Assembly: GCF_014395785.1 (NCBI RefSeq)
Contig: NZ_CP060713.1
Location: 1,950,501 to 2,014,500 of the forward strand
Direction of reading: 5' to 3'
From: Nocardioides mesophilus
Lineage (GTDB): Bacteria > Actinomycetota > Actinomycetes > Propionibacteriales > Nocardioidaceae
DNA: 64,000 bases
Shown: piece by piece, positions 62,740-64,000 of the stretch
Layout of the letters: each line of letters begins with the position of its first letter
Numbering within the stretch: position 1 is the stretch's first letter
The notes under the pieces: model-generated
Told to the model about the DNA's origin: nothing
Databases searched by the model: none
Seen by the model: only the letters and a program-made list of their open reading frames with translations
Translations under genes and position numbers: made by a program

Positions 62740-63693
62740 ATGGGAAAGAAGTCGCGCACCAGGCCTGAGCACCGCACCGACCCGAGCGAGCGCACCGGGA
62801 CAGCCGGCGAGGTCGGACCGCGCCAGCCCTGCCCCTGTGGGTCGGGACGGCGGTTCAAGGCCTGCCACGGCAGTGTCGACGGCCCGCCGCCGCTCTTCGT
62901 GTCCCGGCCCTTCGAGGGCCTGCCGGGCGAGACCGACGTGATCGCGCTGCGCGAGTTCGTGCCCTCCGCGACGGCCCCGCTGACGCTGCGCGACGGCGAC
63001 CGCACCGTCGTCCTCTGCTCGCTGCTGCCGATGGCGGCCCCCGCCCTGGTCCGGCAGGACGGCACGATCTGGCTGGGCCTCCAGGTGCAGCACGGCTTCG
63101 GCGATCCCAGCCGTGACCTCGCAGCCGTGCTGGAGAAGGCACTCGCCGCCGACGCCGGCGAGGTCGTCGGCCTGACCGACCCGCCCGGAGAGGGTCCGCG
63201 GCTGCAGGACCTGCTCGCCGAGCAGCCCCTCGAGGTGAGCGTGCACGACGGCTTCGACTGGTGGGTGGCCGACGTGGACGACCCGACCGGGTCCGTGCAC
63301 GCGTCGCTGGAGGCGGCCAACGCCGCCGCGAACCCGAGCGCCCGGCTGCAGTCGGTGCAGGCGGCGTACTGGACCCGGATGGGCTCCAAGGAGCACCTGC
63401 GCTGGGTGATGCCGCACGACGAGGACCAGCTGCTGACCGCACTGGCGCGCCTGCACGCCGCCGGCAAGGACGACCTGGTCGAGGGCTCGCGGTTCGTCGG
63501 CATGTTCCGGGCGCACGGCCTGCTGGCTCCGGTCTGGGACCTGCCCGTCGGGACCGGTGCCGAGGTGCTGGAGGAGCCGGCGGTCCGGTTCGCTGCCGAC
63601 CTCGAGGCAGCCCTCGCGGACGGGTCGGCGCTGAGCACGCAGGAGCGCTCGGCCCGCAACGGCCTGGCGAACCGGCAGCTGACGATCCGCTGA
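62740..63693 (+). CDS. SEC-C motif protein (DUF5926-like)
   Basis: 317-aa soluble protein. After a basic leader (GKKSRTRPEHR) the SEC-C zinc motif PCPCGSGRRFKACHG covers about residues 30-44. The remaining 270 residues form an alpha/beta domain seen in actinobacterial proteins of this length (FEGLPGETDVIALREFVPSATAPL; HLRWVMPHDEDQLLTALARLHAAG; FVGMFRAHGLLAPVWDLP). SEC-C fingers often mediate contact with SecB, ribosomes or other proteins; the function here is unknown. Monocistronic. Confidence 0.85.
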   Translation: MGKKSRTRPEHRTDPSERTGTAGEVGPRQPCPCGSGRRFKACHGSVDGPPPLFVSRPFEGLPGETDVIALREFVPSATAPLTLRDGDRTVVLCSLLPMAAPALVRQDGTIWLGLQVQHGFGDPSRDLAAVLEKALAADAGEVVGLTDPPGEGPRLQDLLAEQPLEVSVHDGFDWWVADVDDPTGSVHASLEAANAAANPSARLQSVQAAYWTRMGSKEHLRWVMPHDEDQLLTALARLHAAGKDDLVEGSRFVGMFRAHGLLAPVWDLPVGTGAEVLEEPAVRFAADLEAALADGSALSTQERSARNGLANRQLTIR

Positions 63694-63766
63694 GCCGCGG
63701 CCCCGGCCGCACCGGTGCCCGACCGGTCCGGACAGGACTAGACCAGCGGCACCAGATGACGGGGAT

Positions 63767-63786
63767 CCGGCCTTTTTTGGGGCCGG
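63767..63786. other. Hairpin with T6 loop in the terminal intergenic region
   Basis: CCGGCC (63767-63772) and GGCCGG (63781-63786) flank TTTTTTGG. A T-run in the loop is not a normal terminator layout; alternatively T6 after ATCCGGCC may serve as the end of the SEC-C transcript. The region 63694-63780 shows no gene. Confidence 0.3.
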
Positions 63787-63789
63787 GAG

Positions 63790-63818
63790 TTGATCAAAAG
63801 GTCAACCGACCGTAGATT
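63790..63818 (+). promoter_or_regulatory. Strong sigma-70-type promoter for candidate small RNA
   Basis: TTGATC (63790-63795), a 17-nt spacer and TAGATT (63813-63818) make the best-formed promoter in the window, in a distinctly AT-richer patch. An imperfect inverted repeat GTTGATC/GGTCAAC (63789-63795, 63800-63806) overlaps the -35. Transcription would start near 63825, exactly where a hairpin begins. Confidence 0.65.
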
Positions 63819-63825
63819 TATCACT

Positions 63826-63870
63826 GCCCGGTCGTTGTTGTATCCCCCGTCAGCAACGGCCGGGCTTTTT
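63826..63870 (+). ncRNA. Candidate short hairpin RNA ending in terminator
   Basis: GCCCGGTCGTTGTTG (63826-63840) pairs over 15 positions (two G-U) with CAGCAACGGCCGGGC (63851-63865) around the loop TATCCCCCGT, followed by T5 (63866-63870). It starts where the promoter at 63790 predicts the 5' end, so a transcript of about 45 nt, or a slightly longer one through the next hairpins, is expected. A C5 loop recalls the actinobacterial 6C sRNA, but the two loops with six or more C that define that family are not seen. Alternatively it is a plain terminator. Confidence 0.5.
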
Positions 63871-63880
63871 CATGTCCTGA

Positions 63881-63940
63881 GCCCTGCAGGTAAACAGGGC
63901 CAGCCCCGGTCCCCGCTCGAGCAGAGCGGCAACCGGGGCT
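63881..63940 (+). terminator. Two further hairpins, the second terminator-like
   Basis: GCCCTG (63881-63886) / CAGGGC (63895-63900) form a small stem. Then AGCCCCGGT (63902-63910) pairs with ACCGGGGCT (63932-63940), enclosing an inner stem CCGCTC (63913-63918) / GAGCGG (63924-63929), and is followed by TCGTGTTT. They may extend the small RNA or end transcripts entering from outside the window. 63941-64000 shows a CCCGG/CCGGG hairpin and nothing else recognised. Confidence 0.45.
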
Positions 63941-64000
63941 TCGTGTTTCCTGTGGGTCAACCCGGCTTCCACCGGGTCCACCGGGGGTCAGCCGGTCGCC

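Follow-up and report, generated by a model that had tools for sequence, protein, structure and literature searches.

A probable small RNA gene with a near-invariant C5 loop downstream of DUF5926 in Nocardioides mesophilus

To our knowledge, few regulatory RNAs are well understood in actinobacteria, the antibiotic producers included. The 6C RNA of Mycobacterium tuberculosis has C-rich loops that are established to pair with mRNAs. In Staphylococcus aureus, the UCCC-motif sRNAs (RNAIII, RsaE and relatives) present a C-rich loop for which pairing with G-rich ribosome binding sites is proposed. Standard RNA-seq libraries easily miss 45-nt RNAs that have a very stable stem. A Streptomyces RNA-seq study (Moody et al. 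2013, PMC3765725) describes highly expressed sRNAs with C-rich loops (scr5583/sar2652/svr5279 and scr1434/sar6912/svr1031), for which a comparison with RNAIII is drawn, and svr5535, a 41-nt single stem-loop sRNA that is called species-specific.

The locus considered here lies near the end of the window, which is the whole 64,000-nt stretch of Nocardioides mesophilus DNA that was analysed. The original prediction placed a dedicated promoter directly before a hairpin at 63790–63870 and read the pair as the gene of a very short RNA, regulatory in role and carrying a C5 loop. Covariation within the stem and a promoter held at a fixed distance support this reading, and the region is very probably an RNA gene. 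The features of the locus are as follows.

62740–63693, + strand: gene for a SEC-C/DUF5926 protein (317 aa), the upstream neighbour, outside the RNA (Pfam PF19348, E = 2.6e-122; PF02810)
63789–63806, + strand: imperfect inverted repeat GTTGATC-AAAA-GGTCAAC over the -35 box, a possible operator, read from the sequences in a few congeners only
63790–63795, + strand: -35 element TTGATC
63813–63818, + strand: -10 element TAGATT, ending 7 nt before the stem
63824–63826, + strand: predicted transcription start, from the -10 spacing
63826–63840, + strand: 5' arm of the stem, 15 bp, from the fold and covariation
63841–63850, + strand: near-invariant loop UAUCCCCCGU, the proposed seed
63851–63865, + strand: 3' arm of the stem, from the fold and covariation
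63866–63875, + strand: U-tract and conserved tail (YUUYYCAUKYCC in homologues), a proposed intrinsic termination site, from T content and column frequencies
63902–63940, no strand assigned: second stable hairpin (inverted repeat I2; -32.5 kcal/mol, z = -4.0), the probable terminator of the convergent DUF5926 and arcA genes
63988–64000, - strand: 3' end of the arginine deiminase gene (arcA), convergent and running past the window (L028:1989-3401:-, Pfam ADI, E = 2.6e-112)

The predicted arrangement of TTGATC, a 17-nt spacer, TAGATT, a 15-bp stem and a U5 run is borne out by the sequence, with 7 nt between the -10 element and the stem and the five T at 63866–63870. The 10-nt loop UAUCCCCCGU (TATCCCCCGT) closes a hairpin of -28.8 kcal/mol, compared with a mean of -11.6 kcal/mol for dinucleotide shuffles (z = -7.4), and none of 200 shuffles folded as well. 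At nearly all of 208 loci the loop reads NNUCCCCCGU, its main variants being CAUCCCCCGU (139 loci), UAUCCCCCGU (40 loci) and UUUCCCCCGU (23 loci). Among the class-wide sequences, the loop with its five C is nearly constant whereas the stems vary. The tail is T-rich, with 2.76 T in the first 6 nt after the stem and 0.89 further on in 100 non-redundant loci. Many homologues have a weak U-tract, and some transcripts may therefore extend further. An alternative pairing between the 3' arm and the tail was available in 57 of 100 loci, compared with 37 in shuffled tails (maximum 51); this excess was considered too weak and the pairing was set aside.

Compensatory change within the Nocardioidaceae had been named beforehand as a check on the hairpin, and the stem passed it strongly, both in the family and across the class. 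In the family alignment of 24 sequences, 99.4% of cells are paired and four pairs display two-sided change; the covariation score of 0.277, compared with 0.174, was reached by none of 500 shuffles. A class-wide alignment of 30 sequences has 98.2% of cells paired and two-sided compensatory change in 11 of the 15 pairs, with 79 two-sided cells against 21.6 (0 of 500 shuffles). The true register scored 0.598 and slid controls at most 0.185, and all five measures exceeded all 500 shuffles and every slid control. Among 85 distinct hairpins, 137 wobble cells read G-T on the + strand and seven read A-C. Since G-U wobbles are therefore frequent on the + strand and rare on the other, the + strand is the RNA and selection acts on the + transcript.

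The promoter had been described as the best consensus match in 64 kb, which is roughly right. Its consensus score is 8 of 12, a value shared by eight sites in the 64 kb, and one further site scores 9; among these, TTGATC/TAGATT is the only one with both TTG and TA...T. A standard promoter scan with a threshold of 9 of 12 does not report it. With comparable sites in a window of 72.5% G+C, the promoter is unremarkable by consensus match alone, and it is the conservation of the -10 and -35 boxes across homologous loci that makes it more than chance. TTG and TAnnnT boxes stand directly upstream of the hairpin in all 24 family homologues. A TAnnnT box ends 5–9 nt upstream of the stem in 92 of 100 non-redundant loci (3.7 in shuffles, maximum 10) and almost never at other distances. 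TTG is retained 16–19 nt before TAnnnT in 72 of the 100, against 0.4 in shuffles (maximum 3). Streptomyces loci such as L077, L078 and L085 carry a conserved GAGATC...GATCTC inverted repeat across the -35 region, GATCGAATTTGCG...ATCTCTTGTTACCGTT, and this repeat suggests a regulated promoter in Streptomyces. Immediately upstream of the promoter, positions 63767–63786 form another hairpin, CCGGCC-TTTTTTGG-GGCCGG, of weak stability (z = -2.0), with its T-run within the loop and not 3' of the stem.

A 191-base query found a single matching place in 24 of 58 related genomes, all from the family of the window and with identity centred on the hairpin; one extra match, in G028, falls outside the hairpin. 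The 24 loci are orthologous, with a histidine-kinase-like ATPase gene and the SEC-C/DUF5926 gene upstream and, in most of them, a convergent arginine deiminase gene downstream. This common gene order indicates that the window belongs to the Nocardioidaceae. A covariance model placed the hairpin in at least 160 of 295 family genomes, in one to a few copies, and in at least 133 of 395 class genomes from many families, Streptomyces included; these counts are lower bounds because only 14–19 candidates per genome were scored. Some f23 genomes scored as lacking the hairpin do carry it on direct reading of the locus. Carriers named by a pattern scan are Streptomyces, Kitasatospora, Nocardioides, Catenulispora, Frankiaceae and a Micrococcales bin. 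A phylum-wide scan gave almost no matches outside the class and none in the 6C-rich, mycobacteria-like family f7; in the class scan, f7 gave only a few matches of marginal significance (E about 2e-4 to 8e-4). In seven genomes of genus g7 and four of genus g19 without a match, no convincing hairpin follows DUF5926 with all filters off; thus, real losses from the DUF5926 locus occur. Some family genomes lack the RNA, which is thus not essential everywhere. A second copy with the same loop is common in Streptomyces; in three loci (L071, L076 and L081) it follows a WD40-repeat gene, and in L081 it adjoins the 3' end of gyrA. The two Streptomyces copies are often in facing orientation, with some hundreds of kb between them.

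In 167 of 213 distinct loci, the RNA follows a DUF5926 gene of the same orientation, beginning a median of 134 nt after the DUF5926 match. In L102, L103 and f23 genomes, the RNA is on the strand opposite to DUF5926 with the 3' ends facing; in L103, it lies between the same two genes, but inverted. Both RNA and DUF5926 occur in 91 of 342 genomes, the RNA only in 23, DUF5926 only in 89 and neither in 139, in a table that assumes that both samples span G316–G657 and that carries the false negatives of the covariance scan. Co-occurrence in these genomes is significant, with an odds ratio of 6. Even within one and the same family, some genomes hold DUF5926 without the hairpin. A functional tie between the RNA and DUF5926 was rejected because, despite this co-occurrence, many genomes carry one without the other, and the comparison of loci shows the RNA to be independent of its neighbour. 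The gene beyond the hairpin varies by lineage (arcA, Prim-Pol, DUF4446-pheA or GDPD; L028, L093, L100, L102 and L105) while the RNA is retained. In three other families, a c-di-AMP riboswitch is found no more than a few kb from the hairpin (L086:642-781, L102:290-463 and L104:1-64).

A housekeeping-type promoter would start transcription in N. mesophilus at, or within 1–2 nt of, the base of the 15-bp hairpin. The hairpin and its short U-tract would then terminate their own transcript, giving an RNA with predicted ends about 45–50 nt apart that is nearly all stem-loop. The single-stranded loop would serve as the working surface and pair in trans with G-rich mRNA stretches, including ribosome binding sites, much like 6C and several Staphylococcus RNAs with their C-rich loops. 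Two properties of a trans-acting sRNA were found: a promoter of its own, judged by sequence only at the 92 of 100 loci given above, and a conserved structure exposing a conserved seed, judged by covariation and the count of loops in 208 loci. On balance, we favor a promoter-driven, self-terminating RNA that acts in trans through its C5 loop by base pairing.

The complement of the loop, ACGGGGGAW, occurs as 23 perfect sites in the genome besides that of the RNA itself, and among the loci checked none of these sites lies within rRNA or other known RNAs. One site of this type, GACGGGGGAUG, falls within the leader of a gene located directly after one of DUF2344 type; from gene order, the gene with this leader is probably rne (RNase E/G). 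The site was rejected as a conserved target, being present here and absent in about 50 relatives. No conserved cis target was identified in the homologous loci, where a G-rich loop complement is kept neither within 300 nt nor within several kb. Upstream of the promoter, TGACGGGG at 63757–63764 is an exact complement of CCCCGTCA, which spans part of the loop and upper stem; it was discarded as a cis partner as this partial complement is not conserved in homologous loci. With G-rich complements this short, sequence alone gives little power to predict targets.

Several other explanations of the hairpin may be weighed. With its U-tract, it resembles a terminator, and its usual position after DUF5926 would suit a plain intrinsic terminator of that gene or of the convergent pair, preceded by a fortuitous promoter. 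This is improbable, since termination needs no invariance of the loop and accounts neither for a promoter at a fixed distance nor for the 23 genomes that have the RNA without DUF5926, the opposed orientation in L102, L103 and f23 genomes, the same-family genomes with DUF5926 alone and the Streptomyces paralogue that keeps the loop after a WD40 gene, away from DUF5926. The case that the original prediction had set against itself, a hairpin merely terminating an upstream transcript, does not fit a loop more conserved than its stem in an RNA that occurs without DUF5926 and is inverted in one family. The hairpin may end read-through from DUF5926 as a side effect. An inverted repeat that is usually in single copy could instead be an element of the DNA, such as a protein binding, recombination or replication site. 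The promoter directly upstream on the same strand argues otherwise, and G-U wobbles confined to one strand would break a DNA palindrome; this asymmetry largely refutes the DNA-level reading, which is the least credible of all. Membership in the 6C family, for which a scan with Rfam models had been suggested, would agree with the C-rich loop, the actinobacterial range and the similar size class. The idea fails, however, as the 6C covariance model (RF01066) has no match in the window, in a 351-base region (E up to 10) or in the genome. In many genomes that carry the C5 hairpin (e.g., G370, G590 and G477), 6C occurs at other places, which excludes orthology, and one stem-loop with five C is found here in place of two with six or more. 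A divergent 6C member is thus highly unlikely.

A more serious contender accepts the RNA gene but has its C5 loop bind either a protein or a different structured RNA, so that it would work as a sponge or cofactor with no pairing to mRNA; an RNA chaperone, Rho, or a cold-shock, KH or S1 domain protein are conceivable kinds of ligand. The loop is constant to the letter across the class while the stem drifts, and such invariance equally suits a protein. A conserved G-rich mRNA partner was not found in the cis regions or in the probable rne leader of about 50 relatives. Against this, comparable sRNAs use their C-rich loops to pair with mRNAs. Base pairing is judged the likeliest mechanism and protein binding the next, the latter being possible but rather doubtful. 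More tentative than base pairing itself is the proposal that the hairpins form an undescribed RNA family across the Actinomycetes that may act as a global post-transcriptional regulator through the invariant C5 loop, in bacteria for which use of Hfq is not known. If true, at about 45 nt it would be among the smallest dedicated RNA genes known, with a promoter abutting one hairpin that is body, seed carrier and terminator.

Rfam 15 gave no hit at the gathering score for the hairpin, either in the window or at 20 homologous loci of other families, and the loop string was not found in an actinobacterial context in the searchable literature. As far as searchable papers show, an RNA kept in sequence and position throughout the class is missing from Rfam and has not been described by sequence. 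With its invariant loop and a covariance model already at hand, it can be tested directly in laboratory Streptomyces.

Compared with the described systems, the UCCC-motif sRNAs of S. aureus share the C-rich loop, but they are multi-stem RNAs of Firmicutes and no homology is claimed. The scr5583/sar2652/svr5279, scr1434/sar6912/svr1031 and svr5535 groups are alike in coming from Streptomyces and having C-rich loops, and svr5535 is also a single stem-loop of 41 nt; in PMC3765725, they are named after flanking genes other than those of the C5 hairpin, and the comparison is by description only. Earlier Streptomyces work may already have picked up the C5 hairpin family as unannotated peaks. The 6C RNA differs in having two C6-loop hairpins and another locus, and it is strong in family f7, where the C5 hairpin RNA was not convincingly found. 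Both RNAs co-occur in genomes and, like the C5 hairpin RNA, 6C is short, actinobacterial and equipped with C-rich loops that are thought to pair with G-rich mRNA sites.
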